From positions 13,833,501-13,897,500 of the forward strand of contig NC_088310.1 in NCBI RefSeq assembly GCF_910592395.1: 64,000 nt of DNA, in the 5' to 3' direction. The translations under genes were made by a program, and so were the position numbers. The notes under the pieces were generated by a model. It worked only from the letters and a program-made list of their open reading frames with translations. It had not been told where the DNA came from and searched no databases. Source of the stretch: Lineus longissimus. Lineage: Eukaryota > Nemertea > Pilidiophora > Heteronemertea > Lineidae. Within the stretch, counting starts at the first letter, position 1. Every line of letters begins with the position of its first letter. Shown here piece after piece: positions 5,444 through 58,892 of the stretch.

Positions 5444-5770
5444 ATGACAGAGGCGGAGAAGACAATGCAAATGCTAGCACTTCAGATGCACGGTATCTAC
5501 TTTGTGAACACGCCAACAGACATCTGTATGGCACGTCTCGCAATACGTGGTCGAGATTTCGAGTGCAGCGGACCAAATCCGGTAACGTATTCGTATCAAG
5601 AAGCCCTGAAAGCCGCTTACCAAAGGCACCTGGCCAAATGGAAAAATTACGAAATTTGCACAGGAGCATGGGGTGAGTGCAACATTGCCCTAAAGGAGAG
5701 TGCCAAGGCAAGCCCGAAAGAGCTGCTAGATTTCATACATAACAAAGATTACAAAATTTCATCTTGCTAA
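5444..5770 (+). CDS. Small ORF of unknown function, weakly like a nucleoside kinase C-terminus
   Basis: A 108-residue frame starting MTEAEKTMQ and ending NKDYKISSC. I do not recognise it with confidence. The stretch IYFVNTPTDICMARLAIRGR followed by a helix containing YQEALKAAYQRHLAKW resembles the LID/C-terminal part of deoxynucleoside kinases (a strand, T-P-x-x-C-x-x-R-L, then R-G-R, then Y-x-x-A-L). The N-terminal P-loop half of such an enzyme is absent. It lies just after the polymerase fragment and before Helentron 1, so it may belong to the same virus-like element. It could equally be a chance frame. Confidence 0.3.
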   Translation: MTEAEKTMQMLALQMHGIYFVNTPTDICMARLAIRGRDFECSGPNPVTYSYQEALKAAYQRHLAKWKNYEICTGAWGECNIALKESAKASPKELLDFIHNKDYKISSC

Positions 5771-5841
5771 AGACAAGCAAAGTACAACAATTTGAATAAC
5801 ATCTATCACACTGTCACAAATCGCTCTATTACCACAACATC

Positions 5842-7014
5842 ATGATCTCTCTTGAACAGTACCGGTCAGCTGTGGGTTGTTTCTTTTCAAGAGCAATAAC
5901 AAAAAAGGACAAGGACGCCCCTCAGTGTGGTTGCAAACATACGACTCCTCTCTTAAACAATGTTCAAGATTTTTACAGTGTCACAGAACTTTATGGGTAC
6001 AACATTTGGTTTGATGAAATGACTGTAAAGCACAAGTCCAGAAGTGCTGATTTGTCTGTTGAAGACATAATATTGAATACCTATTACTCTTCTGTACAAA
6101 GCACATGTGAATATTATTTTTCATTCTGGATCTTGGAAAATGTACTGCTTCATCATTCATTTGCTAACTTTGAAAGATTAAAGTTGGCTGGTGATGTAGA
6201 GAGTAATCCAGGACCTTGCCAGTTTACAATAATGAAAGCAGTTCAAGGTCATTTCCATCAGGGTGATGTGACAAGGTTTCGTGGCGAGTCGATTGGCAAA
6301 CAGTGTATTTGTAACTGTGTCAAAGCATTGGCCTTTTCATATGTTAAAGCACCTCTTTCGTGGACATCTAATGATCTAGATGATATTCTACTGCAAGGAG
6401 ATCAGTTGTATCAGAAATGGAATATCGCTGGCTATATAGCTATAGATCAGATTCACCCCTATATTGAATTCTCTAACAAACATTTCTTCAGTTTAAAACC
6501 ACTTGGTGCAACTAAAGGTGTGCTTTTACTTGAAAATAGTTTACTTCTTGATGATGACGGGACGCCATATACATGTATACAGTTACGGCATGCTGTTCAG
6601 AAACTTTTCCCAATGGGATTTTCCATTCTGATCATTCAAGGGAACGCTGTGGCCTTGATTTGTGTGTCCGGTCGTTATTTCTTGTTTGATTCCCATAGTA
6701 GAAATATAAATGGTGAAGTAACGCCAGATGGTACATCAGTATGCCTACAGTTTCAACAAGAATCTGACGCTGTGAATTTTGTTGCTAACTATGTCATTAA
6801 CCTTGGTTGTAGCATTTCTGACACAAACAACATTGAAATAACCTATTTCAGATTGAAATTAATGTCATCAAAAGCATTTGCCCTGGGAGAAAAGAGGTCA
6901 ACAATACAACATGGCATTTCTGATGAATCTTCCACAAGCCAACATGATCCCCAGCCAGCCACTTCTACATCACACAATTACCATTGCAATTTAACAACAT
7001 ACATAACGGATTAG
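5842..7014 (+). pseudogene. Helentron 1 polyprotein, N-terminal part: leader, 2A motif, cysteine-protease-like domain
   Basis: 390 codons from MISLEQYRSAVGCF to a TAG at 7012-7014. Residues 1-117 are a leader with several Cys and His residues and a hydrophobic aromatic stretch near 95-105. Residues 118-125 are DVESNPGP, a canonical 2A ribosome-skipping motif preceded by LKLAG. Downstream, GHFHQGD...GKQC...DLDDILLQGD and later YFLFDSHSR give a Gln/Cys and Asp-x-His arrangement like papain-fold deubiquitinase-type proteases (herpesvirus tegument C76 or OTU-like); Helentrons are known to carry OTU-like proteases. The reading frame is the same as the next segment, so the TAG looks like a nonsense mutation in one long polyprotein. 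The homologous junction in Helentron 2 is open. Confidence 0.8.
6193..6216 (+). other. 2A ribosome-skipping motif DVESNPGP
   Basis: Translates as LKLAGDVESNPGP, matching the D-[VI]-E-x-N-P-G-P consensus at every required position. In 2A peptides the ribosome skips the final Gly-Pro bond, so the ~124-residue leader would be released from the following polyprotein, which would begin with proline. Function here is inferred from the motif. Confidence 0.9.
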
Positions 7015-9882
7015 AAGGAGAAACTTACTAGACATGAGTACATGAAAACACTGATGCAACGAAAAAGAAAGGATGAGTTATACAAAGCAAATGAAAAATT
7101 GAATGATAGGACAAATAAACACTCTCTTCGTACTAACACTGAATATAAGAACAAGGAACTTTATCAGAAGCAAATGAAAAGGACTAATCCACTCTTCCAA
7201 GAAAAGGAACGAATACTAGGAACACCAAGTAAACAGAAACTTCGCAAAAATATAGACTATCAGGCAAAGGAACTTCTTCAGAAGCAAATGAAAAGGGCTG
7301 ATCCAGAAATAAAGGAAAAGGAGCTTCTAACTAAGCAAATGAAAAGAGCTGATCCAGCAATAAAGGAAAAGGAGCTTCTAACTAAGCGAATGAAAAGGGC
7401 TGATCCAGAAATAAAGGAAAAGGAGCTTCTAACCAAGCGAATGAAAAGGGCTTATCCAGAAATAGAGGAAAAGGAGCTTCGAACTAAGCGAATGAAAAGG
7501 GCTAATCCAGAAATAAAGGAAAAGGAGCTTCTAACTAAGCGATTGAAAAGGGCTGATCCAGAAATAAAGAAAAAGGAGCGTCTAACTAAGCGAATGAAAA
7601 GGGCTAATCCAGAAATAAAGGAAAAGGAGCTTCTAACTAAGCGAATGAAAAGGGCTAATCCAGAAATAAAGGAAAAGGAGCTTCTAAGTAAGCGAATGAA
7701 AAGGGCTGATCCTGAAATGAAGAAAAAGGAGCTTCTAACTAAGCAAATGAAAAGGGCTGATCCTGAAATAAAGAAGAAGGAGCTTCTAACTAAGCGAATG
7801 AAAAGGGCTGATCCTGAAATAAAGAAGAAGGAGCTTCGAACTAAGCGAATGAAAAGGGCTAATCCAGAAATAAAGAAAAAGGAGCTTCTAACTAAGCAAA
7901 TGAAAAGGACTGATCCAGAAATAAAGGAAAAGGAGCTTCTAACTAAGCGAATGAAAAGGGCTAATCCAGAAATAAAGGAAAAGGAGCTTCTAACTAAGCG
8001 AATGAAAAGGGCTAATCCAGAAATAAAGAAAAAGGAGCTTCTAACTAAGCAAATGAAAAGGACTGATCCAGAAATAAAGGAAAAGGAGCTTCTAAGTAAG
8101 CGAATGAAAAGGGCTGATCCTGAAATGAAGAAAAAGGAGCTTCTAACTAAGCAAATGAAAAGGGCTGATCCTGAAATAAAGAAGAAGGAGCTTCTAACTA
8201 AGCGAATGAAAAGGGCTGATCCTGAAATAAAGAAGAAGGAGCTTCTAACTAAGCGAATGAAAAGGGCTGATCCTGAAATAAAGGAAAAGGAGCTTCTAAC
8301 TAAGCGAATGAAAAGGGCTGATCCAGAAATAAAGGAAAAGGAGCTTCTAACTAAGCAAATGAAAAGGGCTCATCCAGAAATAAAGCAGAAGGAGCTTCTA
8401 ACTAAGCAAATGAAAAGGACTGATCCCGAATATAAATTTAAGGAACGAGTGATTAAAGAGCGTAGTCGAGCCAATGCACATGTATGTTCTATTGAGCAAA
8501 ATAAAGATGTTTCCCGTAAGAGAAAATTGAGATGTGATGAACAATATCAGTACATGGAGAGAGAAAACAAACGTTTCAAACGCAACATGAACAGGACGGA
8601 ATTTACATTAAAAGTCACCACGATAAATACATTGAAGAGAAAAGTGAGAAGAGAGTATCCTAGTGTTCGACAAAATGAAACAGCATCCAAAAGACAAAAG
8701 AGAGTAGGAGATAACCTACGAACGAGTATTGAGTTATTCCATGAAAATATAAGTAATGGACCACTGTATGTATGTAGTTCATGCCATCAAACATGGTTTA
8801 AGCATTCTGTTATTGATGCAAGTAAAGTCCATGTCCCATCAGATAGACAAGATCTCTTATCTGAATGTCTGACCAGCTATACTTCAGTCAGTAACATTGA
8901 ATGGATGTGTAGAACTTGCAGAGATTCCATTAATAAAGGAAAAGTCCCGAAGTTGTCTATAAAAAATAACATGGCGTTCAAAGTAAAAGACAAACCTCCA
9001 GAACTAGACTTGCACCAGTTGGAAGAAAGGCTAATATCACTGCGCATTCCATTCATGCAAATGAGGGAACTTCCTGTTGGTGGACAAAAAACGGTCCGAG
9101 GCAATGTAGTCAATGTTCCGATTGATGTGTCAAAAACAGTTCTATCTTTACCAAGAAATCTGTCAGATATAGAAACAGTGCCAGTAAAATTAAAAAGAAG
9201 AATGCAATACAAAACAAATGAATTCATTGAGAATATCAGACCAACAAAAGTACTCCATGCTTTAAAGTGGTTAAAAGATAACAGCCCATTCTACAAGGAC
9301 GTCAATGTCAGTAACGATGAGCAGTGGATAGAATCACTTCAGCCACAACTCTCTGGCAACATGTCTGAATTTCTTGATAGAAGGGAGGCTGACCCTGAAC
9401 CTGCCCCAAGCACATCAAAAGAACATGAACGGCAACCCAATAGTGCATTTAATACCACTTCGAAGAAAGTTCACCTTAATTCCCGTTCTGCTGATGAAAA
9501 AAATGGTGAAAGTTCTGAGGACGATGACAGTGATCATTTCAGTGAAGTAGATGATACTGAACTTAGGACATCTGCAAATATGGACACAATGCTGGATAAT
9601 GCTGAATTGCCAGAACCTGAGGAATTCATCTTTGCTCCCGGAGAAGGACAAACACCTTTAGGCTTATTTCATGACAGCAATGCTAAATATCTTTCATTTC
9701 CTACCATATTTTGTGGACAAGGCAGATCTGAACATCCAGTAAAAGTACATTACAGTGATATCAGCAAATATGAACTGAGAAGTGTAGACCGCAGAGTTGC
9801 CCAAAATGTTCCAAATGTATTCTTTAAACTGAAAAAGTTACAGATCAAACAAATATCTGATAAAGTTGGATTAGCTGTCTGA
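7015..9882 (+). pseudogene. Helentron 1 polyprotein, middle part: basic repeats, zinc-binding region, DUF6570-like
   Basis: It continues in the same frame after the TAG; the first ATG is at 7042. From 7267 to 8439 there are 23 tandem copies of a 17-residue unit (consensus KELLTKRMKRADPEIKE), very basic and probably helical. A CSSC...WMCRTC zinc-ribbon-like region follows near 8780-8925. Then comes LEERLISLRIPFMQMRELP...VNVPIDV, characteristic of the region before Helitron Rep (DUF6570-type). The segment ends at TGA 9880-9882. Helentron 2 has arginine (CGA) at the same place, so this is probably a single C-to-T nonsense change. After the stop the same frame continues into Rep. Confidence 0.82.
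7267..8439 (+). repeat. 23 x 51-bp in-frame tandem repeat
   Basis: Exactly 23 units of 51 bp (1173 bp) with no frame-disturbing indel. Variants such as ADPEMKK, TDPEIKE and ANPEIKK recur in blocks (for example units 9-12 resemble units 17-20), which suggests expansion by duplication of multi-unit blocks. The encoded repeats are lysine/arginine-rich. Confidence 0.95.
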
Positions 9883-12800
9883 CGTTGTAAAACAAAAGGA
9901 GAAACCTACACTGCCCATCAGATGCTAGATGATGACAGAAGACACAACATGGTACATTTAGATGAAGGCTATTATATCTTCAGAACAATACGAAATTCAC
10001 CACCCTACCTCGAAAACAAAAAGAAAGAGGTTTTTGCTATGATTCGACAGCTTGGTATACCTACATTATTTATGTCATTGTCAGCTGCTGATACAAGATG
10101 GTCACCTCTTCTGAAAACACTTGGGCTTTTGATTGACAAGGTTGAATATACTGACAATGAAATCCAAGACTTCAAGTGGCAAACTAGAAGTAGACTCCTC
10201 AGCGCTGACCCAGTTTCCTGTGCTAGATATTTTGACAACCGATTTCATGAATTCATGAAAACTGTTCTGAAAGGACCTCATAATCCATTGGGGGTAATCA
10301 CCGATAGTTTTCATAGAGTAGAATTTCAGCAAAGAGGATCTCCTCATGTTCACATGGCTTTATGGATTGAAAACGCACCTCAGTATGGATCGTCTTCTGA
10401 AGAAGAAGTAGTCAACTTTATTGACTCTATAATCAGTGTATCAGCTGATGTCATTGAAAGTGACATGCCCTTTCTTGCCTTGCAATACCATAAACATCCC
10501 AAAACATGCAGAAAAGGTAAATGTCCCATTTGTAGATTTGGGTTACCAATGCCTCCAATGAAAAGGACTAGAGTTTTAGAACCATTAGATTTGGATCCAG
10601 AAATCACTGATGAACAATTGAAGATCTACAAAGAAAACTATATGAAGATTCAGGCAACTTTGATTGCAATGGGTGACGGGAAAGATACGAAGTGCACATA
10701 CGATGATTTCCTTGCTGATCTCAAAATGACAGAGGACGAATATATCTACAGTATCCGTTCATCATTAAAAGCACCCAAAGTCTTCTTGAAAAGAAAACCA
10801 TCAGAAATTCGTATAAATCCATACATGAAAAATCTCCTGAGTTCCTGGCAAGCTAATCATGACATACAATTTATTCTTGATGGGTATGCTGTTGCTGTAT
10901 ACATTATTGCATACACTTGTAAATCTCAGAAAGGAATGAGTGCTCTCCTTGATACAGCTGCTAAACAGGCAAAGGCAGATAAGATGGAACTTCGACAAGC
11001 TGTACGTCACATGGGAAATAAGTTTCTAAATTCCGTCGAAACTGGAGCCCAAGAAGCAGCGTATCTGGTGCTACAATTACCAATGACACGATGCTCAAGA
11101 GATGTTGTTTTCATAAACACAAATATTCCTGAAGAAAGACCATTCATACTAAAGGACAAGTCCAAATTAGAAAAATTGAAACCAACATCAACTGACGTAC
11201 AAGTGGCAGGTATGATCACGTGGTATGCAAGGAGAACATTTCTGAAACAGTACTGTCTAGCTGATTATGTATCACAATTCACTATCACTTATCCAAAAAG
11301 TGAAACCCTTGATGATCCATTCGAAGAGAATTTAGATGATTACCCATTGGATGAATCCAATGATACTAATGACAATGACAACTCGGCTGATCATAGTGAA
11401 ATGAATAGATATGATGAAAATGATGAACACGACTTCACTGTTGAAGCTACATATGTTACTCGAACTGGTGTGAAAATTACTAGAAGGAAAACCCCAAAGG
11501 TAATACGATACGTGAATTTCAGCAAAGAAAAGGATTCAGAAGCATACTACAGAGAGCGTATCTTACTATTCCACCCTTGGTCCAATGAAAATCTCTTAAA
11601 AGGACACCATGAGACCTATGAAGAGCAATACAACTTTTTAAAGGCAACTACAAATATTGACACGAAAAGAAAAGAATATGAAAATTTCAATGAGGAATTG
11701 ATGGAAGCTATTGCTGAAGCTGAAAATGATGATCCTGTTGAGCAGGATGAAATTGAAGGGACTATCCAAACCAATGAATGTTTATTCTTTGATCCAGACC
11801 GTTCAAACAATCAGAAACATTACGACATTGCACAAGACATAGGAATTGCTGTTAGACCATCAGATCAACAAGTTGAATTGATGAACCACAAACTGCCCGA
11901 CAATCAATACAAGGAACTTCTCAGATCACTCAACTTGAAGCAAAGAGAAATATTTACACATGTAGTGCTGACAATAAAATCAAGTGCCACGAATAATGAG
12001 CAAATTTACATGTTCATAACTGGCGGTGCTGGTGTAGGCAAATCACAAGTTGTGAAAGCACTTTATCAAGTACTGCTACGACGCTTGTGTTCTGAAGAGG
12101 GGCAAAATCCAGAGGATGTCAGAATCCAAATAGTTGCTCCAAGTGGCTTTGCTGCATATGTTGTCCAAGGTTCCACAATTCACTCTGCCTTTGCAATACC
12201 CTTTCAAAAAGATCTAAAATCATACAAACCGCTCACACAAGAGAAACGGAATACAATGCGAGCTAAGTATCGAAACCTTCAAGTACTATTCATTGATGAA
12301 ATATCAATGGTTGGCTGTGAGATGCTGCTTTTCATCCACCAGAGATTACAAGAAATTATGGGTATAAAAAAACCATTTGGCGGTGTGCATATCATCACAA
12401 TTGGAGATATGTTTCAGCTTAGACCATGTTTCGGCGGCTATGTATTCGAAGACTCTAAATCCCCGAATGCCCAACTTGAAGCTGAGTTATGGAACATTTG
12501 GAGAGAACACTTCGTTGTTTATGAGCTTGATGAGATAATGAGACAACAAGACGACATGGCTTTTGCCAATACCCTTGGTAGACTCAGAACCGGAAACCAA
12601 ACCCAAGAAGACATAACACTTTTGAAAACCAGGCAGATCAGTTTTAGTGACCCAACCTTTCCACGAGAAGTGCCTCATATTTTCGTACTCAATAAGCAAG
12701 TTGATGAGCATAACCAAAAGATGTTTAATGAGACAACTGAAACAAAAGCTATTATACATGCACAAGACATTGTCACCACATCTTGCACAAAAGATATGCA

Positions 12801-14868
12801 AAACAAGATTTCACAAAGTCTTAAGACAGTTGCAACATACAACAACTGTGCAAACCTGCAAAGAACTCTAAATGTCGCAGTTTCCCTAACATACATAATC
12901 TCCATCAATCTGGACGTTGATGATGGCCTTGTCAATGGCTCAACATGCATTATCAAACATATACAGTATCATGCAGAGCTGAAGAATCCATCTATTATAT
13001 GGGTCGAATTTGAACAAAAAAGAATAGGACAAGAACAGCGATCATCTAACAGATCTTCATACTCATCAGCCATCGATAAATCATGGACACCAATATTTGC
13101 AGTCAAAAGACAGTTTCAATGGGGAAACCATCATTATGTATTAAGGACACAGTTCCCCCTGAAACAAAGCAATGCAAGAACAGTGCACTCATCACAAGGC
13201 GGAACATTTCAGAAACTTGCCATAAATATGAACTCAATGCTCAAAAATACACCCCCTGGTCTTAAAAACCACTCACATTATGTAGCATTAAGCCGAGTAC
13301 GCTCTCTCAATGATTTATACATAATTGACCTCAATGAAAAAGATATCTCTCAATCATCTAAAGTGCAAGACTACATGAGATTAATGAAACAAGCACAGCA
13401 ACTTGTCTTATGTTATACTCCAGTGTACTATGGCAAAGAATTTAATATTGCTTTCATGAATGTTGGATCCCTCAAAGATTATGTCAACACGTTACCACAA
13501 ATTGAATCATTAGCAAATGCTTCCCTCATTGCATTTACCAATCCCAAAGTTGTCAAATCTTGCCTGTACAAGTTGCCAAATTATCAACCAATATGCAATG
13601 ATCAGCTATCATCAAAAACTATCGATGACACTACAACAGAACTTCTGCTATACATTAAGAATGAAGTCACAATTTTGGAAAGAACTTTTTTTAAAACAGA
13701 CTGTTTTCAGGCAATCTATGTCTGTGTTCATCCACCACAGTGCCATGAGATATATCACATCATTGTCATTAATGTGTACCCACAATGTATTTGGACAGAT
13801 CTTACTAAGTGTTTAGATGAATGTCTTTTACGATACAAAAAAATGGACAAATTCCTGCTTCTTGGGAATTTCAATAACATTGACATACCTGTACTTATTG
13901 ACAATCCTGACAAAACTGTAGGTGACAGTCAACCCAAAAAGATAATGGACAACAAATACAAAATGCAGTTGGAAACATTCATGTCACAAACCTACAACTT
14001 TCATCAATTCCTCATACAACCAACCACAAAAAATGCCCCCAGACCAACAAAAAAGGACTGTACACATACCAAGTTGGACATGATCTTTGCACACAAGTCA
14101 AACTCTGATTACATTCACTCTGTTAGCCTCATAAACCACCCCTTCTCGACCCATCACATGGTAAAAACTGCTCTTGCCTATCAACCAAATAATCTACTAA
14201 AAATTGTTTTCCACAATGCAAGATCAGTCCATGGAAATTTCAAAGATCTGAAACTTGACCCAAACATCAAAGCCGCCTCTATTATTGCATTTGCAGAATC
14301 CAGATTAAAAGCATCTGATCCAGACATAAGCTACTCATTACCAAACCACCAACTGCTGCGTAATGACCAAACAACTACAAAAGACCTAAGACCTCCACAT
14401 GGACTGATGATGTACATTAGTACAAATTACAAAATAATGGAAGTAAAAAATCATAACCATGGAAATTCCTTTGAAGCGCTTTCAGTTTGCATTCATCCCC
14501 CAAATCATCACCCAGTCATCCATATCATTGCAATATATGCAGCGCCATCATCTACGTTCCGAAATCTTGTGTATGGTCTACAAGACTGCCTTTCATCTTA
14601 TGAACCGAATGAACAATACATTGTTATGGGTGATTTTAACATGAAATCAATAGGTGAAGGTGAAAACTATAATGCAAAGTTAGAAACCCTTATGTTTCAA
14701 GCATATAACTTCAGACAAAACGTGTCCAAAAACACCACCAGCTATCAGTCCAAATTGGACCTTGTATTCACCAATCCTACTCCATCTGCCACTATTGACT
14801 TGGTCGATATAATAGACAATTACTGGTCAGATCACAAAATTGTCTACTCTGCTTTGTCATACCTGTAG
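9883..14868 (+). pseudogene. Helentron 1 polyprotein, C-terminal part: HUH Rep, PIF1-like helicase, two EEP domains
   Basis: The frame continues unbroken to TAG 14866-14868; the first ATG is at 9922 (1648 residues, numbering from there). Rep: RGSPHVHMALW with the HUH pair at residues 142-144, and the two-tyrosine motif YIIAY at 327-331. Helicase: Walker A GGAGVGKS near 701-708, LFIDEISMVG (Walker B), motif VI HYVALSRVRS. The C-terminus holds two endonuclease/exonuclease/phosphatase domains. The second is complete: N1432 in FHNARS, E1459 in AESRL, D1571 in GDFN, D1637 in SDH. The first (about 1176-1400) has FTNPKV for AESRL, GNFN for GDFN and THH for SDH, so it looks inactive. The Rep nicks and joins, the helicase unwinds, and the endonuclease may cut the target. 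The N-terminal end is cut off by the upstream TGA. Confidence 0.88.
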
Positions 14869-15003
14869 TCACCTCAATTAAATTCAACTTACGCATTATT
14901 TTATCTCTCATGTAATTTCATTGTAAAACATTACTTCATTTCTTTCTTATATTTAAAACCATGCTAATGCTTCATCCATCTTCTCTTCACAAGAGGTGAG
15001 CAC

Positions 15004-15019
15004 AATGGCCCTGGCCATT
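15004..15019 (+). other. Helentron 3' terminal hairpin
   Basis: AATGGCC-ct-GGCCATT, a perfect 7-bp stem with a 2-nt loop, followed by TCATT. It is preceded by AAGAGGTGAGCAC. The same hairpin and flank occur at 54275-54290. Helitron 3' ends carry such hairpins as transposition terminators. Confidence 0.75.
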
Positions 15020-15029
15020 TCATTTTTAA

Positions 15030-20080: not shown

Positions 20081-21373
20081 CTACATATTCCTGAAATGCT
20101 GATCTATCAAGCGTGCCCTTTCTCCAACACCTCTTTCTTCGACATCGACATCGAGGATTGGTCTATTGTTGACGTCATCATCGGGATTATCCACATTGGC
20201 TGGTGGGTCGTTTGGGACAGGGAGGCCGTGGTTTTCACAGATGTTATGTAGCACAGATGTTGCAATGATCACCGAGCAACACTTCTCGGGGCTTAATCGA
20301 AGAGTTCCACCTGCAAAAAAGGCATCTTATTAAAGAAATGAGAATGGGGAAAGTCAGTCGAAATCGAAATGGAACTTGTACTGCAAAGCAGTCTATGCAG
20401 CAATGTTATGGGGTGAAATGCTGCAGCACTGTCTGAGAATGGCTATAATAGCCATTTGCAGACAGGTGCTGTCGGTGTCTAGAAACTGGCGATCTCTCCT
20501 GATTCACCAATAAGGACATAATTTACCTTCTTTGTGCAAGCACCTCCATCGGTTTTTCCATCTTCCAAAGGTTCGTTCAATGATGTTTCGTACTCGCCTG
20601 TGGTGAACGTTGTATTGTCTGTCCGCTGCATCTGCTGGGCGGGAGACTGGGGTCATGAGACAGGGTCTAAGTGGGTAGGCACTGTCACCGAGCAAGTATC
20701 CTCCATCATTCAGGCCGCGTTCCATCTTCACCTTTAAATTGCAGTTGGACCAGATAAACGCATCATGGGTGGCACCTGGCCATCGGGCTACTATATTTGA
20801 AAATTTCAAATCATAAGTACAAATCCCCTGCACATTAATGGCATGCCACTGTTTCCTGCACACGTATGCATTCTCGTTTACGGATGGACATTTGATCGGA
20901 ATAAGGGATCCATCTACGCAGCCAATAACGTTCGGAATCCGATGGCGTTCTGTATAAAATCCTTCCTTCTGACGTTCTTGCTCAGCAGCTGTTCGAGGAA
21001 ATGTTATGAAATGTTTTGCTTTACCCTGCAAAGCAGTTGCAACTCTGGTAATAATCCTTGATATCGTAGGTTGACTCAAGCCATTTGACATGTCTCCATT
21101 GTCCAACTGCAAACTGCCAGTAGCAAAATATCTAAGCGCAACGCAAACTTGGAGAGTTGCTGGAACGGCGTGCGAGCGCAGCGTATACGGGGCAATGTCA
21201 TCCTGCAACAGGTCGATAACTTCGAGAAGGACCGGCCGAGTCATCCGGTATCGTCTGTACAAATCTACGTCATCATAGACGTCAAGCGGTTGTAGACGAT
21301 CTCTAAACACACGCTGCCGTCGTAAAGCCCGCCTTGCTTCCAAATTTTCCAACACAATCAACGCCGCAGCCAT
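20081..21373 (-). CDS. HARBI1-like: HARBI1-like DDE transposase, two exons
   Basis: Exon 1 is 21373-20527 and exon 2 is 20310-20081 on the minus strand, joined by GAAG|GTAAAT and TTTGCAG|GTGG (1077 nt, 358 residues). Motifs: GCVDGSLIPI (first D), LLGDSAYP (second D) and IIERTFGRWKNRW (E). The spliced exon adds SVIIATSVLHNICENHG, matching the ACAMLHNIA helix of transposase 1. Without splicing the frame stops soon after the ERTFGRWK motif. The N-terminus MAAALIVLENLEARRALRRQR parallels transposase 1. The two transposases are clearly diverged in sequence, so they belong to different Harbinger families. Confidence 0.88.
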
Positions 21374-22664: not shown

Positions 22665-25600
22665 AATAATAATAATACGAGTCTTATATAGCGCAGTATC
22701 CAACCATTAACGGGCCGCTCAAAGCGCTTGATAGGCCTCTTTAAAAAGCAAATGTTTCAGTTGTCCCTTGAAAGATAACAGAGAGCTGCAGTTCCTAACA
22801 GTTGAAGGAAGTTTGTTCCACAGCTGAGGGGCTCCAATTGAAAATGCTCTACCACCGACTGACATGACATTGGTCTTTGGGATAGACAGAAGAACGGCCG
22901 ATGAAGAGCGCAGAGTTCGAGAAACGGTATGAACGGAGAGAAGTTCTGAAAGGTATTGGGGAGCAAGTTGGTGAAGACACTTGTAAGTAAGAAGGAGAAC
23001 CTTGTACTTGATGCGCTGTTGCACAGGAAGCCAATGTAGAGACCTGAGTACTGGGGAAATGGAAGATCGTTTCTTGGTCTTGGTAATTAGGCGAGCGGCA
23101 GAATTTTGTACCTTCTGTATAGGGGTATAATTGTTGAATTGGGACAACCAAGGAAAAGGGAATTACAGAAATCCAGGCGAGATATTACAAGAGCCTGGAC
23201 ATATAACCTGGTGGTATTTGGAGTTAGATATTTTCTGATTTTCCCGATGTTACGAATGTGAAAATTGGTGGCCCGTACACATGTGTTAATGTGTTCTTTG
23301 AAATTGAAATCACGGTCCAAGATCACACCCAAATCTCTTGCAGAAACAGAAGAATATACATTTGCATCAATGATACGGATGGCGGGGAGATTAATAGTGC
23401 TGCTGAACCTGCGGGAACAGATTAGCAGAATCTCGGTCTTGTCGCCATTACAGCTAAGAAAGTTGTCGACCAACCAGAGATTTAAATCGTGGACAGCATT
23501 AGAGATCTTGGAGCAGGTGGTAGTAATCTCAGTTATAGTGAAGGCCACATACAATTGACTGTCATCAGCATATAAGTGGTACATAATGGCATGCTTACGG
23601 ATGATTCCACCAACTGGGGTAGTGTAGACAGTAAAAAGTACTGGTCCCAGTATAGAACCCTGGGGAACACCGAACTTGATAGGACTAGGTCTTGACAATT
23701 TGCCGTCAATGCATACCTCTTGTGATCTGTTATCAAGATAAGACGAAACCCATGCCAGTGCTGTGCCAGTAACACCCATAGCAGCAAGTCTCTGAAGTAG
23801 TCTGGAATGGTCCACAGTGTCAAATGCGGCGCTCATATCGAGTAATACAAGGATTACACACTTCTTTTCATCAAGTGCATGAATTATGTCATTGTGTACT
23901 CGCAATAGTGCCGTTTCAACACTGTGAAGTGGTTTGTAAGCAGATTGAAACTTGTCAAGAGCACCGTTTTCAGCAATATGGCTTGATGACTGATTGCAAA
24001 CCACCCTCTCCAAAACCTTTGAAAGGAAGGACAGGTTAGAGACAGGCCTGTAGTTTTTGAGTGTGTCAGCATCTAAGGATGGCTTCTTAATCAAGGGATT
24101 AAGAATAGCTCGTTTGAAAGAGCTTGGCACCATGCCACTTTCCAATGAGGAATTGACTATCTTGCAAATCAGGCGCATAATGTCTCCTGGTAGGCACTTC
24201 CTAAGCAAAGATGTTGGGAGTGGGTCTAATGCACACTGTATTGGTTTCATGTCACTAATGAGTTTGAGTAGCCCGTGTTCAGTTACAGGCTTAAATACAT
24301 CAAGGTATGAAGTCTGTGAATAATGTTCATCTAATGATTCATTCGAAACTGACGCTGGAAACTTGTCTCTGATGAGTTGCACCTTCTCACTGAAAAATGA
24401 ACTGAACCGTTCAGCAAGTTCAGAAGAACACTCATGACTAGGCAGAGTAACAGACCCCCTTCCATACAGAAGTGATTTAACAGTCTTGAAAGTCTCTGTA
24501 GTTGGTGAATTGAGAAGACGAGCTGAAAAATGTTCCACCTTGGCAGCTTCGATCATTTTGTCAACATTACGAGCTTGACTCTTCCATACCTGCCGATCAA
24601 CGGTGAGTTTACTCCGGCGGTATTTTCTCTCGAGCTTGCGCTCCAGCTTCCTGGCAAGAATGATATCATCGTTGAACCAGGGAACGTTGGGTCGCACATG
24701 CACAAGTTTCGACTTGGCAGGTGCATGCTTGTCTAGAAGGGAACCAAGCAATCGATCATAGCTATCAACGAGTGACTCGAGATCGGAAGACAAATCTAGG
24801 CCTTGAACACCATCAGAAACATCAGAAGCAAAAGATTTGATGTCAATTGATTTGACCTTCCGGTATCTAATAGTTTTAACAGGCAATGGCGGCTTGGCCA
24901 TGTTGACCGTGAACGACACTGCATAGTGATCGGAGATGCTGGCATCTGATACATGAATGTTGGACACAGATGCATCACCGACCCTTGAAATAACAGCACC
25001 TAACAAGTGGCCCTTGTCATGGGTTGATTTGTCAACGTGCTGTAGAAGATGATGATGTGCAAGAATGTCAGTGAATCTCAACATGTCTGGGTGGTCAGTT
25101 TTTTCAAGATGAAAGTTAAAGTCTCCAGTGAGAATCAACTTGTCATGTGGCGTCTTTAAGGATATAACACTAATTAACGTATCGAACTCCTCAAAGAAAA
25201 TTCCACGGTTTGAGTCGGCACTTGGTCCTTTCTCCGGCCTATAAACCAAGAGAAGCGAATACACACGAGTGTTCCAAGTAATCCTTGCTTGAAGACATTC
25301 AAAACTTTTCGGCCACGACACGGATTTCACAGTGCACTCCAGAGATGACCTGAACATTATACCAACTCCGCCTCCTCGTCTCCCAGGCCGTGGAACATGT
25401 CTAAAAGTATATCCATCAATGTTAATGGCAGCAACTGAAGCCGTATCAGTATTGGTAAGCCATGTTTCTGTTATCAACAGAATGTCAATGTCATTATCAA
25501 TGACAGAGCATGTCAGTCTACCAGCCTTGTTCCCAATAGACCTTGCATTGACTAAGGCACATTTCAGAAATCGAACACCTTGTAATGACAGAGTAGACTT

Positions 25601-26046
25601 ATTCACTGACGCTTGAGTGTTTGTTGGATCAACACTAATAAGTCCATGAGTCTTTCTTCCACTTCTCTTTGATCGTCTAGTCTTCTTTCTTAACAAGTGT
25701 GATCTACTCAGGCAAGTCGACAGATTAGGCGAAATTGACCTGCTGAGATCACATTTCCTAAGCTCATGAAGTTCACCAGGTGAATACATTTTGACAGCAC
25801 CAATGTACACAGTGTGTTGTATGTACAATGTACAGGGCTTGTGAATCCCTAGAAAGGGCAAAAAGTTGCCAACAAGGAACACAAACACTGCAAATGTTAT
25901 CACCACACAAACCATCTCAGAATAATCCCATGATATTCATGAAACCGTGGAAACAATCCTGGAGCACAGTTCTCAAAGTATCCAAGTGAAAAACTGAAAC
26001 TTTGTAGGAGACCTTTGGAGGAGCAGCTACCAAGCGCTCACATACA

Positions 26047-39159: not shown

Positions 39160-39690
39160 TATCAAATATCTGCCGCAAGGCACCAAATATCTGCCGCAAG
39201 GCACCAAATACCTGCCGCAAGGCACCGAATACCTGCCGCAAGGCACCGAATACCTGCCGCAAGGCACCGAATACCTGCCGCAAGGCACCGAATATCTGCC
39301 GCAAGGCACCGAATATCTGCCGCAAGGCATCGAATATCTGCCGCAAGGCACCGAATATCTGCCGCAAGGCACAGAATACCTGTCGCAAGGCACCGAATAC
39401 CTGCCGCAAGGCACCGAATACCTGCCGCAAGGCACCGAATACCTGCCGCAAGGCACCGAATACCTGCCGCAAGGCACCGAATACCTGCCGCAAGGCACCG
39501 AATACCTGCCGCAAGGCACCGAATACCTGCCGCAAGGCACCAAATACCTGCCGCAAGGCACAAAATACCTGCCGCAAGGCACAAAATACCTGCCGCAAGG
39601 CACCGAATTATTGCCGCAAGGCAACGAATTGCTGCCGCAAGGCATCGAATACCTGCTGCATAGCAACAAATACCTGCATTGAAGTACCAA
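39160..39690. repeat. 21-bp minisatellite, about 24 copies
   Basis: The unit AATACCTGCCGCAAGGCACCG recurs with few changes from about 39160 to 39690, ending about 120 bp before the Helentron 2 start codon. Because 21 is divisible by 3 and the unit has no stop, several frames on both strands stay open. I do not treat these as genes. Confidence 0.95.
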
Positions 39691-39808: not shown

Positions 39809-40054
39809 ATGGGTAACGATCTTGTTCAATATAGGTCAGTGGTTGGCCAGTTTTCTCCAACTGCTAATGCATTGAGTCAGCCAGTGCAAACAACTGCATG
39901 TAGATCTTGTCCATTTCGCCGAAATCATTGTAATTTTGATGTTTTTACATGTAGTTCATGGAAAGACGATTGTTCAGAAAAATATTGGATTAAAAAACAA
40001 GATGAAGATGACTTCAGAACTGTATGGTACTTCAACTCAATCTGGCTAGTTTAG
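39809..40054 (+). pseudogene. Helentron 2 polyprotein leader, first part
   Basis: MGNDLVQYRSVVGQFSP aligns with MISLEQYRSAVGCFFSR of Helentron 1, which fixes the start. It is followed by a Cys/His-rich stretch (CRSCPFRRNHCNF...CSSWKDDC). It ends at TAG 40052-40054 in the same frame as the next segment, so this is a likely nonsense change. Confidence 0.7.
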
Positions 40055-40060
40055 ATCTAT

Positions 40061-41975
40061 ATGCATAATACGAAAATGTTCTTTCAAAAAGATCATCAGC
40101 TAAATAACAAAAATAATTTAGATGTTTTAAATCAGGAAATTGATTCTAAGTCTGAAAAATGGTTTGCCAAAATAATGAAAACTTATGAAGCCAAAAAGAA
40201 CCAGAACACTTGTCATGTAATGAACACTCACACAAGTTCATCACTTGACCCTTCCATGGAAAGTAATTGCATAACGTCATTCTGGCATTACAACCATGTC
40301 ATTTTTGAATTGTCATTAGTGTTATTCTTTGTCTTGACTATGGGGTATGAAGTGTACACCTCCAATGTTCTGAAATTGAGTAATGATATTGAAACAAATC
40401 CTGGCCCAGTTGATCATGTTGTTGACTCTCTTATAAGAAAAGTTGTCCAAGGTTCATATCACCAAGGTAATGAACGATACTCTGAAACTTCCATGGGTAG
40501 ACAGTGTGTCACTAATGCTGCATCATCTCTTTTATATTCTGTCATTATTTCACCAGCACACTGGCAATCACAAGACCTTGATGACATTTTAAATGAAGGA
40601 GATTTATGGTACAGAGAAGTAAAATTGACCAAACCGTCCTTGAATTACTTGGCCATTGATGAACTGCCAGCTTACCATTCATGTTTTAATGAAAATTTCA
40701 GAATCAAACGAGTTGGAGTATCATATAATTATTCTTATTGTGATGCAAATTCCCAAGCTCTACCTGCTGAACAATTCCTTGCAAACATGTTGTCTGAATA
40801 TGGTGCTATTGTGATAGTAGCATCTCAAGCAGCAGCCTTTACTGTTATCCATATTGATGAGAGATATTATTTATTCGATTCACATAGTAGAGATAAACAT
40901 GGTAAGCCATCACCTGATGGGTTTTCTCTTCTACTCTCATTCTCAGATTTGAACAAGTTAGGTGCCTATTTAAAACAGTATATTGGAATTATTATTGATT
41001 GCATATTTGAAGCAACATTTTTCGAAGTATGTATAGTATCAAAGAGAACTTTGAAACGTGGCCTAGAGAAGTCAACAACAACAAAATCAACAACAAATGC
41101 GTTAATTGATGATTATTTAGATGATCAGGCTAAACAACAAAAACGAAAGCATGATAAAAAAGTGTGTATACAGTTCAAAAGAAGAATAGAACAATTTCGG
41201 CAAAATGAGTGTGAACAACAAAAGTTGTTTAAAAAGAAGGCAAGGTTGATTAAAAGTAAGCAAAATCAAATTTTAGAAATTGAAAGTAGGTCTAAGCAAA
41301 AAAGCAAACTCGATGATTCTAAAAGACAAAAGATTCAAGAAATTAAGAGGCTATCAAAACAGAAAGCCAGACTTGATGATTCTAAAAGACAGAAAATTCA
41401 AGAAATTGAAAGAAAATCAAAAGAAAAAGCGGGACTTATTGATTCTAAAAGAGAGAAGGTTCAAGAAATTGAAAGAAAATTGAAACAGAAAGCCAGACTT
41501 GATGATTCTAAAAGACAGAAGGTTCTAGCAATTGAAAAAAGGTCAAAACAGAAAGCCAGACTTGATGATTCTAAAAGACAGAAGGTTCAAGAAATTGAAA
41601 AGAGAAGAAAGCATAAAGCCAGGCTTGATAGTTGTAAAAGAGGACATGTTCAAAACCTTGAGAAGAAATTAAAACGAAAGGCACGCCTTGATCAACCTAC
41701 AAAAAATTCTGAAAATGAAAGAGATGTGCTTCGCAAGAAGAGAAAGCGTGACAGTGTGTCTTACAGAGAAATCGAACATCTGCAAAAACGTGTCAGATAC
41801 ATAAAAAACAAATCTAATGAACAAAATGTCCAAACCCTACAAAATTGTCAACTTGTTCCTGAATTAAGTAATGATCTCTCTTCCTATCAAAAGAAGAAAT
41901 ATGGCGCAACATTAAAAGACAATATTGATCTATTTTTTGAATCGACTGCCAGTGGTCCTATTTACATCTGCAGCT
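40061..41975 (+). pseudogene. Helentron 2 polyprotein: 2A motif, cysteine-protease-like domain, basic repeats
   Basis: Residues are numbered from the ATG at 40061. A hydrophobic segment (VIFELSLVLFFVLTMGYEVY) lies just before VLKLSNDIETNPGP; the 2A motif is at residues 109-116. The protease-like domain follows: GSYHQGNERY...GRQCVTNAASSLLYS (candidate Cys), DLDDILNEGD, and YYLFDSHSRD (Asp-x-His). Then come six to seven copies of a 21-residue unit (consensus KQKARLDDSKRQKVQEIEKRS), unrelated in sequence to the 17-residue unit of Helentron 1 but in the same place and equally basic. A one-base insertion near 41975 shifts the frame at the CCHQTWF zinc region. Confidence 0.82.
40385..40408 (+). other. 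2A ribosome-skipping motif DIETNPGP
   Basis: Encodes LKLSNDIETNPGP, matching D-[VI]-E-x-N-P-G-P. Position and context (hydrophobic leader before, protease-like domain after) equal those in Helentron 1, although surrounding residues have diverged, so the motif has been conserved between two families. Confidence 0.88.
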
Positions 41976-53186: not shown

Positions 53187-54295
53187 AGCTCACCTCTTAG
53201 CTGAGGTGAGCTTATCCCATACCGTGGGGTCCGTCGTCGTCGTCGTCCGTCGTCATCCGTCGTCCGTTAGCAGGGCACGTTTCGTAACTGTTAGAGCTAT
53301 TGAGTTGAAACTTGGTACACATGTACCCTTATGTAATGACACCTTGGAGACCAAGTTTCGGTCCGATTCGCTTCATGGTTTGGCCACCAGGGGGCCAAAC
53401 GTTAAAAGTGAAAATATGCAATATCTCCCTTAATAGTAGTCGGGAAATTTTGAAAAAAATATGGTAGGTACTTCTAGCAAAGGTGCATCATATATCCTCC
53501 GGGTTTTTGATTTGCCCTCCTTTTCAAGGTCACAGAGGTCAAATAGTGTAAATTGGCTGTTAGGATGTAACGATGGCATGTTCTAAACTGCAATGACTAT
53601 TGATCCCAAATTTGGTACACATTTACCCCTTAGTCAGGTAATCCCAGGGACCGAAGTTTGGTCCAATATGATTCACCACTTGACCACCAGGGGGCAAAAT
53701 CCAAAAACCTTAAAAATGTGATTATTCCTTAACTTCTTGCCCGATTGCCACCAATTTGATATCATGGATACATCTAACCACCATACAGCATATGTCACAC
53801 AGGTTTTTAATTTGACCTTCTTGTCAAGGTCACAGAGGTCAAATGGCGTAAATTGGCCGTCAGGCCGTAACTATGGCACGTTTCTTAACTGCAATGACTA
53901 TTGATCACAAATTAAGTACACATGTACCCCTTGGTCAGGTGGTCTCAGGTACCGAAGTTTGGTGCGATCTTATTTGCCGTTTGGCCTCCAGGGAGGGGGC
54001 CAAATCCTAAATTCTTCAAAATGCCATTATTCCTAGTATTACTTGCCCGATTGGCACCAATTTTATATCATAGGTACATCTAATTCTAACAACCATTCAA
54101 TGTGTCACCCGGGTCTTCTTTGATTTGACCTACTTTTCAAGGTCACAGAGGTCGAATGTACTGTAAATTGGCCATTTTGGGGAAATTGTAATTGCTTGGA
54201 CCTACATCAAACCTAACACTACATGACACAATACCATGCTCTTTATCCATCTTTCCTCCACATGAGGTGAGCACAATGGCCCTGGCCATTTCATT
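53187..54295 (+). mobile_element. Non-autonomous Helentron-related element (HINE-like)
   Basis: 5' end: TTTAGCTCACCTC-ttagct-GAGGTGAGCTTATCC, a hairpin, then (GTC)n. 3' end: GAGGTGAGCACAATGGCCCT then GGCCATTTCATT, identical to the 3' end of Helentron 1 (about 14990-15024). The 5' AGCTCACCTC is the inverse of the 3' GAGGTGAGC (subterminal inverted repeat). The interior has three or four copies of a ~300-bp phrase (CAAGGTCACAGAGGTCAAAT..., CCACCAGGGGGC...). No coding. Confidence 0.75.
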
Positions 54296-57308: not shown

Positions 57309-58892
57309 GTATACAAAACCAAGACCTAAGACATAAGACCTAAGACCTAAGATCCCCGAAGTACAAAACTAAGACCCAGGTACAAAACTAAGATCCCCCG
57401 AGGTACAAAACTAAGACCCGGGGAGCCAATTCCAAACTAAAATTTTGAAGAAAAATATCAGAGTCTTAGTTTGTACATCAGGGGATCTTCGTTTTGTACG
57501 TACAAAACTAAGATCCCCCGAGGTACAAAACTAAGACCCAATTCCAAACTAAAATTTTGAAGAAAAATATCAGAGTCTTAGTTTTGTACATCAGGGGATC
57601 TTAGTTTTGTACGTACAAAACTAAGATCCCCCAAGGTACAAAACTAAGACCCAATTCCAAACTAAAATTTTGAAGAAAAATATCAGAGTCTTAGTTTTGT
57701 ACATCAGGGGATCTTAGTTTTGTACGTACAAAACTAAGATCCCCCGAGGTACAAAACTAAGACCCAATTCCAAACTAAAATTTTAAAGAAAAATATCAGA
57801 GTCTTAGTTTTGTACATCAGGGATCTTAGTCTTGTACGTACAAAACTAAGACCCCTCGAGGTACAAAACTAAGACCCATGATTTCTTTCCAAATTCTGCC
57901 CCTCTTTCGAATTCATTTTGATGTAGTAATATCACCTTTGAGATGCATGCAGTTGCTCCATCTGAATAATACCTCCATATGCACTATGCAGGCACGACCG
58001 GTCATCACTCTAGCATATACTCGAGCATATACGGCCTCCATCCAGCTCCACAAAAAGTGGCGAAACCGGTGCAATACTCCTTTGAGTCATTCGGAGGAGC
58101 GCCGTCATCGGAAGAGTTGGAACGAGTAAAATATGAACGTTTTCTTATCCATCAATTACATACTAACCGAGTCAAACAACGTTATTGCAATATAGGCCGT
58201 TATTTAATGAATTTACATAAATCGATCAGAATATTTTGAGAATTGTGTACAAAATATTTGTGGGAGACTTAACTGAAAATATACCAAGAAGCAAAATGAA
58301 AATGTTCCTTTGGCATTTAAGTGTACAGAGTCGTCAAACACAGCTTTTACAACGAAATGAACATGGGTTGTATCAAACATCCATGCGTATGTACATGTTG
58401 CATATAACAATACATTATACACAACAGAGACTCCCTTCTTACCTCAACACACTACTAAGCTATTTCATTTATGACTTGTAAAATGGGAAATTATTACTAC
58501 ATCAAAATGAATTCGAAAGAGGGGCAGAATTTGGAAAGAAATCATGGGTCTTAGTTTTGTACCTCGAGGGGTCTTAGTTTTGTATGTACAAAACTAAGAT
58601 CCCATGATGTACAAAACTAAGACTCTGATATTTTTCTTCAAAATTTTAGTTTGGAATTGGGTCTTAGTTTTGTACCTCGGGGGATCTTAGTTTTGTACGT
58701 ACAAAACTAAGATCCCCTGATGTACAAAACTAAGACTCTGATATTTTTCTTCAAAATTTTAGTTTGGAATTGGCCTCCCCGGGTCTTAGTTTTGTACCTC
58801 GGGGGATCTTAGTTTTGTACCTGGGTCTTAGTTTTGTACTTCGGGGGATCTTAGGTCTTAGGTCTTATGTCTTAGGTCTTGGTTTTGTATAC
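57309..58892. mobile_element. Foldback-like element with palindromic tandem arms
   Basis: The outer ends GTATACAAAACCAAGACC / GGTCTTGGTTTTGTATAC are inverted. The left arm (57309-57930) has about four ~118-bp units, and the right arm (58491-58892) has about two, in inverse orientation. Units contain ACAAAACTAAGATCCCCC, AATTCCAAACTAAAATTTTG and the palindrome TTTTGTACGTACAAAA. The innermost inverted segment (CAAATTCTGCCCCTCTTTCG...) is also shared by both arms. The central 560 bp is unique. Superfamily unknown. Confidence 0.8.
57979..58239 (+). CDS. Unrecognised small frame in the core of the foldback element
   Basis: 86 codons including YGLHPAPQKVAKPVQYSFESFGG and SSEELERVKYERFLIHQLHTNRV. 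I do not recognise it. The sequence is not low-complexity and contains a plausible helix, so it may be a captured exon, but chance is possible. Start codon is uncertain. Confidence 0.2.
   Translation: MHYAGTTGHHSSIYSSIYGLHPAPQKVAKPVQYSFESFGGAPSSEELERVKYERFLIHQLHTNRVKQRYCNIGRYLMNLHKSIRIF

Follow-up and report, generated by a model that had tools for sequence, protein, structure and literature searches.

Does a DNA transposon encode a 2A (StopGo) peptide, and would this peptide split its protein in two? The question is raised by the window analysed here, a stretch of 64,000 nucleotides from Lineus longissimus. The original prediction placed a canonical 2A motif at residues ~113-125 of a Helentron polyprotein, in a position to free a leader from the protease-Rep-helicase-endonuclease chain.

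The 2A motif stands between a leader and a protease-type domain

In the translation of 5842-7014 the predicted motif is indeed present and occupies residues 113-125. The span first given for it, 6160-6216, contains the motif but begins too early, as it takes in an extra FANFER in front; the exact coordinates are 6178-6216. The core, DVESNPGP (6193-6216), fits (D/G/C/N)(V/I)ExNPGP, and the predicted skip falls between G124 (6211-6213) and P125 (6214-6216). The motif is in frame between two coding segments, an open leader before it and a VTD domain after it, and its upstream context (ERLKLAG) fits the rule for 2As with D at p12, being L-rich with G at p11. When NPGP was sought in six frames of the whole window, it occurred only twice, each time as a full 2A core (6178-6216 and 40370-40408). 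The second occurrence belongs to another Helentron, in which p11 is Asn, outside the Gly-at-p11 context. The features of both elements are as follows.

Helentron 1
5731-15026, plus strand: 5'-truncated copy, ~9.3 kb, 99.3% identical over exactly this span to locus L051 on the same contig
5842-5883, plus strand: N-terminal leader motif MISLEQYRSAVGCF, common to Helentron leaders, foreign relatives and 6/20 non-LTR 2A loci, with varied synonymous codons
5842-6192, plus strand: leader, an open frame with 117 codons ahead of the 2A core
6178-6216, plus strand: 2A motif LKLAGDVESNPGP, residues 113-125, in frame, directly before the VTD domain
6226-6900, plus strand: VTD deubiquitinase-type protease domain, end approximate (Pfam PF04843, E 2.8e-10)
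7012-7014, plus strand: in-frame TAG of the window copy; L051 is open at that point
7282-8436, plus strand: 51-bp tandem repeat, 22.6 copies, 17-residue Lys/Arg-rich units
8935-9318, plus strand: DUF6570 (PF20209, E 3.4e-24)
9880-9882, plus strand: in-frame TGA of the window copy; Arg in L051 and Helentron 2
9925-10356, plus strand: Rep (Helitron_like_N; PF14214, E 1.2e-24)
11929-12600, plus strand: PIF1 helicase (PF05970, E 4.3e-23)
14518-14847, plus strand: AP-type endonuclease (PF14529, E 1.4e-9)
15004-15019, plus strand: 3' palindrome AATGGCCCTGGCCATT, then TCATTTT at the element end; shared with L051

Helentron 2
~39.8-48.3 kb: second, diverged Helentron, with its 2A at the same place as in Helentron 1
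39809-40384, plus strand: leader, MGNDLVQYRSVVGQF..., with an in-frame TAG at 40052-40054
40370-40408, plus strand: 2A motif LKLSNDIETNPGP
40454-40900, plus strand: VTD domain (PF04843, E 1.6e-9)

Shortly upstream of the Helentron 2 leader there is also a 21-bp tandem repeat of 24 copies (39165-39677), open in several frames.

The window copy of Helentron 1 is truncated and decayed

The hallmarks of Helentrons were assessed in the window copy, in L051 and in L052, a member of a second family. Rep (PF14214) and PIF1 (PF05970) are parts of one protein in L051 and L052, and in the window copy both lie within 9883-14868; a C-terminal AP-type endonuclease (PF14529) ends all three, and the 3' stem-loop AATGGCCCTGGCCATT with a terminal T run is present at the end common to two copies. 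By eye, the C-terminal parts of L051 and L052 appear to hold two endonuclease-like stretches in tandem after the helicase, the last of which is Pfam's best. The three long frames of Helentron 1 in the window share one phase, interrupted by the TAG at 7012 and the TGA at 9880. With these two stops the term polyprotein does not apply to the window copy; it does apply elsewhere, as L051 (3,020 codons) and L052 (3,034 codons) each have a single uninterrupted frame with all domains, in the order leader-2A-VTD-DUF6570-Rep-PIF1-endonuclease.

Upstream of 5731, the five loci compared (L002-L005 and L007) go on in common sequence, but the window copy does not. Past 15026, after the palindrome and the T run, the flanks of the window copy and L051 diverge. 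Since it begins inside sequence that other copies share, and carries two stops, the window copy is truncated and decayed and cannot produce the full chain. As regards this copy only, it is probably a dead relic that inherited the 2A motif and no longer uses it, a reading favoured by the 5' truncation at 5731 and by the stops at 7012 and 9880. However, leader, 2A and VTD (5842-7011) are still open, and a host-driven transcript could give leader plus VTD. Elsewhere in the window, at 54230-54295, we noted a ~70-base copy of the Helentron 1 3' end (86%), which may be the terminus of a non-autonomous relative.

The domain behind the 2A belongs to the VTD deubiquitinase class

A VTD deubiquitinase class in Helentrons has reportedly been described by Erven et al. 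In Helentron 1, the VTD residues C155 (6304-6306), D283 (6688-6690) and H285 (6694-6696) are invariant in the 11 proteins aligned. The best PDB match of the domain is 8add, the zebrafish Helitron VTD (sequence profile E 3.9e-24), which the AlphaFold model also matches by fold (E 1.2e-12, TM 0.78 by target length). The model has a mean pLDDT of 61.9 overall and is confident in the VTD only (averages over ten residues are 71-96 for residues 131-220 and 70-92 for 251-320); its first VTD strand starts four residues past the predicted skip, at residue 129. What had been called a protease is thus of protease type, and its kind can be specified as a VTD deubiquitinase, predicted to cleave ubiquitin. 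VTD deubiquitinases are found in Helentrons, and ubiquitin cleavage is reported for zebrafish relatives (PMC9741609, excerpt). Because the VTD is of deubiquitinase type, a role for it in cutting the chain would be a guess.

The 2A core is conserved in Helentrons of this genome

Exact matches to D-[VIM]-E-x-N-P-G-P number 92 across the 391 Mb genome, where 0.34 are expected from the window's base composition and the backward-pattern control gives 0, so that a chance origin of the 2A core is rejected. We examined 74 of the 92 sites: 53 are in Helentrons (47 assigned by script, 6 by eye from VTD-like sequence downstream), 20 are in non-LTR-like elements, and one, L072 (DMESNPGP amid stops), resembles a chance match. 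The non-LTR label refers to Pfam matches above cut-off in four loci (RVT_1 in L036; endonuclease in L040, L059 and L087), to weaker ones in L031, L046 and L056, and to assignment by eye in the remaining loci; L056 has a PHD finger above its Pfam cut-off, and the sole Pfam match of L081 is sub-threshold and irrelevant. Among the other 18 sites, 17 have a 23-base core identical to a non-LTR one and one differs by a single base. The presence of the motif in 53 Helentron loci rejects both a retrotransposon inserted in a single Helentron and an assembly chimera.

Absence of the motif from other Helentron copies had been named as the result that would speak against the prediction, and we found the reverse. 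In a homology search with protein P0001, which did not require the motif although P0001 itself contains it, the exact core was present in 49 of the 52 places spanning query residues 118-125, among the 89 matches listed; seven more matches, starting at residues 120-126, are left out of the 52. The three spanning exceptions are L016 (NPCP), L006 (a rearranged core) and L099 (NNIETNPGP). For ten matches, 111-281 bases at the match or upstream of it were inspected; one of the ten is L099, and no 2A was present in the 211-281 bases inspected at each of the other nine (L091-L098 and L100). At L091, L093, L094, L097 and L098, a frame upstream of the VTD-type match has a Met and a basic stretch (MAKRKRF..., MPPAKKQ..., MPRSLKS...), as if these lineages started their protein without leader and 2A.

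When the 53 Helentron sites were clustered at 70%, 21 families resulted; their representatives do not vary at D, E, N, P, G and P and have V or I at the second place, an invariance that is built in, because the sites were chosen by the core pattern. It is the free flanks, the varied codons and the homology search that are informative for conservation. The columns directly after the proline have entropies of 2.1-3.7 bits, and codon choice at D, E, N, P and G varies among the families. Upstream, 19 of the 21 families retain Leu at -12 and 14 retain Tyr at -17, and some constraint therefore extends into the ribosome-tunnel stretch. The 49 spanning places and the varied codons together indicate that the core is kept by selection.

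Relatives from elsewhere carry the motif as well

Two protein searches gave 31 related proteins from elsewhere, several of them near-copies. The pattern (D/G/C/N)(V/I)ExNPGP is present in 25 of the 31, with D at the first place in 19 and G in 6. Of those devoid of a 2A, P0016, P0024, P0025 and P0032 start within ~20 residues of the VTD domain, P0033 does not fit the VTD pattern used, and P0019 has ~70 residues upstream of the VTD with no 2A therein. A tree of 45 VTD domains, rooted at its midpoint, places rows with a 2A in both branches of the deepest split (support 100/99), which means that the association of 2A and VTD is old or has arisen more than once; the label changes at least 4 times, and long branches make finer points of the tree unsafe. 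P0031, a single predicted protein, carries a pair of 2As; directly behind the first lies the Helentron leader motif (NPGP|NSLEQYRVTVGSF), so that here the predicted skip site stands in for the start codon as the border of the leader. A viral carrier was also considered and dismissed: when viral contigs were scanned with the VTD alignment, none of the 22 pattern matches proved to be a relative.

Skipping is predicted to release the leader from the second chain

On an intact Helentron transcript, the ribosome would make the leader (~85-185 codons) first, reach NPG|P at its end and release it, and would then resume at the proline to make a second chain of VTD, Lys/Arg-rich region, DUF6570, Rep, PIF1 helicase and endonuclease. 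The original reading, in which the 2A would detach the leader from the chain, agrees with position, conservation and context. We thus consider it very probable that Helentrons here encode a 2A peptide which ends the leader and splits it from the second chain, with the window copy as a decayed member; the skipping, its efficiency and the leader's job are what we infer from sequence. The conserved site is most likely active. It would give Helentrons two proteins per transcript and mark the end of the leader.

The E2A used in the comparison that follows is presumably the ERAV one. FMDV and ERAV 2A (F2A and E2A; Picornaviridae) have ends identical to the 13 residues in the window (PMC4063965) and share with them an L-rich upstream stretch, D at p12 and S at p15; over the last 17 residues of the Helentron 1 2A, 15 match the F2A printed there. 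The viral peptides split capsid from replication proteins, whereas the Helentron 2A, on a DNA transposon, would split a leader from a deubiquitinase-Rep-helicase chain. Letter for letter, the 13 residues are the shortest active FMDV 2A, versions under 13 residues being inactive in vitro (PMC3765190, excerpt). Helentron 1 also fits the motif 2/6 type, defined by an L-rich run ending (A/S/C)G, D at p12 and S at p15 (PMC12846837, excerpt), its own run ending AG. Identity over 13-17 residues is nevertheless no proof of efficiency, because the residues that matter number more than 14, the FMDV 2A reaches full activity only with more than 30, and chimeric contexts are often inactive (PMC12846837, excerpt).

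The residue before the core deserves separate attention. 2As with D at p12 strongly favour Gly at p11 (PMC12846837, excerpt), and the review canon for this place is G or H (PMC8623073, excerpt). At p11, Asn is present in 17/21 Helentron families and Gly in 4/21, while the 20 non-LTR loci have Gly in 18 cases, Asn in L069 and Trp in L063. The word canonical therefore suits Helentron 1, but not the 17 families with Asn where 2As usually have Gly or His. None of NDIETNPGP, NDVETNPGP, NDIESNPGP and NDVESNPGP is printed in the literature searched. As we found no assay of the p11 residue of most families, these families offer a natural test of the upstream rules. That Asn at p11 was found nowhere described as a 2A context could be taken to mean that the peptide is conserved for another reason, e.g., as a protein-binding motif or a VTD linker, and does not skip. 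We regard this as very improbable: the conserved residues are those of a 2A and little else, the sequence varies directly after the proline, and Helentron 1 carries the shortest active FMDV 2A exactly.

Known 2A systems and the Helentron 2A

RNA viruses commonly use 2A skipping, and among cellular genes it is described as rare (PMC12846837, excerpt). 2A-like sequences are known in non-LTR retrotransposons (L1Tc; Odon 2013), as cited in excerpts of PMC4981915 and PMC12846837. Such elements are mobile too, and 20 non-LTR-like loci with a 2A were examined here, 6 of them with a similar leader start; unlike Helentrons, they are RNA-copied, have endonuclease and reverse transcriptase, and carry mostly Gly at p11. 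The 2A signal sequences of sea-urchin NLRs (PMC4981915, excerpt) are likewise near the N-terminus and resemble the hydrophobic leader of part of the Helentron families, but belong to cellular immune genes and form a 26-residue 2A at the very N-terminus. The VTD-bearing Helentrons of PMC9741609 (excerpt; PDB 8ADD, zebrafish) have the same VTD fold by sequence and structure and an AP endonuclease too, and the available text of that paper mentions neither NPGP nor skipping.

No description of a 2A in Helitrons was present among the literature matches listed, a scope that leaves outside most subscription papers, Rao 2025 and Odon 2013. Rao et al. 2025 searched viral and cellular proteomes for 2As, according to PMC12846837 (excerpt), and theirs is the place where an earlier report of a Helentron 2A is likeliest. 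What we describe would be an established mechanism whose occurrence in this carrier class we found described nowhere among those matches; most of the families also have an unusual p11, and some retrotransposons share the leader start. Of the 2A sites examined in this one genome, DNA transposons account for the largest group (53/74), and sites of this kind are seen again in proteins from elsewhere.

The leader is under purifying selection

The dN/dS of the leader was 0.25-0.75 in the 30 non-independent pairs of related copies listed, and that of the VTD was 0.19-0.35 in the 28 of those pairs where it was computable. The Helentron leader is under purifying selection. In the AlphaFold model, pLDDT is below 50 at residues 1-87 and 109-125 of Helentron 1.

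We also assessed the hydrophobicity of the leader as the best 19-residue Kyte-Doolittle mean. This value is 0.66 for Helentron 1, reached by 75% of shuffles, and goes up to 2.5 in other families; it exceeds 1.5 in 8/21. A universal membrane leader thus finds no support from Helentron 1. In the 11 foreign relatives with a full leader (the P0004-P0017 and P0020 group), a hydrophobic stretch of 1.96-2.44 ends 8-23 residues before the skip. This stretch, like the 8 families above 1.5, would suit a 2A that skips partly, mainly for dual targeting: skipped products would be a free VTD-Rep chain, and in unskipped ones the hydrophobic leader would bring the chain to a membrane, a scheme that has been proposed for sea-urchin NLR leaders. 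N-terminal 2As that double as signal sequences are reported (PMC4981915, excerpt). Still, dual targeting seems unlikely to us, as the Helentron 1 leader is not membrane-like, fewer than 5% of shuffles reach the family's value in only 8/21 families, and hydrophobic residues near the core may be just the 2A context in the ribosome tunnel.

The leader start resembles that of some non-LTR retrotransposons

The QYRxxVGxF part of the Helentron leader is present in 33/53 loci (within the available upstream stretch), and the strict motif with Met in 22/53 (within 150 codons). In the six frames of the window (127,996 residues) the strict motif marks the starts of the two Helentrons only, and it was found 0 times in 5.1 million shuffled residues. 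Similar starts are seen in non-LTR L046, MGISVEQYRFSIGNF, and Helentron L074, MGISLTQYRLCIGLY. The Helentron-derived pattern matched only 1/21 non-Helentron loci, namely L046; a widened pattern, written after the non-LTR leaders had been inspected, matched 4/20 non-LTR loci strictly and 6/20 loosely. Profile comparison of the two leader sets gave a probability of 91.5 over 19 columns with E 8.7e-7, a value that is too good because five non-LTR rows were picked for having the motif.

For a fair test, the training set of the profile (M..QYRxxIGxF) was confined to Helentron leaders and foreign VTD leaders, with Met required. Six of the 20 non-LTR loci (L031, L033, L046, L063, L081 and L087) scored 8.2-26.5, all above the background of 2,998 segments, whose maximum was 3.6; the other 14 do not stand out in this test. 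Without the Met condition, L033 and L046 still top all 2,998 segments, and 3 to 14 segments reach the other four. As L033 and L046 are near-copies, the six loci represent about five families. All six Arg codons are used for the Arg of the motif among the 19 rows compared, which indicates conservation at the protein level, and the stretch from the leader Met to the 2A is free of stops in 17 of these rows.

A leader-2A cassette may accordingly be common to two transposon classes. Tentatively, we suggest that it could have been passed between Helentrons and a subset of the non-LTR retrotransposons that share their genome, with a homologous M..[ILV]xx[YW]RxxIGxF start, a variable middle and the 2A, and been kept for a common purpose, e.g., the release of a small accessory protein helping both elements in the host; this is possible, if somewhat short of probable. 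Such exchange with the non-LTR class has a precedent, since the Helentron endonuclease is thought to have been taken from CR1-like retrotransposons (PMC4067079, excerpt). The alternative is that the likeness of the leader starts reflects convergence on a host-binding motif. Passage of the cassette, if it took place, would be a concrete case of transposon classes exchanging a translational-control module. Two foreign ORF1-like proteins, P0036 and P0038, are related to non-LTR L031 and have a 2A after a short leader; the start of P0036, MPANQLDFRAACGSF, is a possible variant of the leader motif.

Other features of the window

Two transposase frames with DDE_Tnp_4 (PF13359) lie on the minus strand, at 1548-2597 and 20507-21373; we take them to be perhaps Harbinger-like. 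A non-LTR retrotransposon frame with endonuclease and reverse transcriptase occupies 23090-25915 on the same strand, and NPGP is absent from the minus strand of the window, this frame included. At 57426-57878 and 58545-58820 there are 113-bp tandem repeats with a long palindrome around TACGTA, which by eye look related, in opposite orientation.
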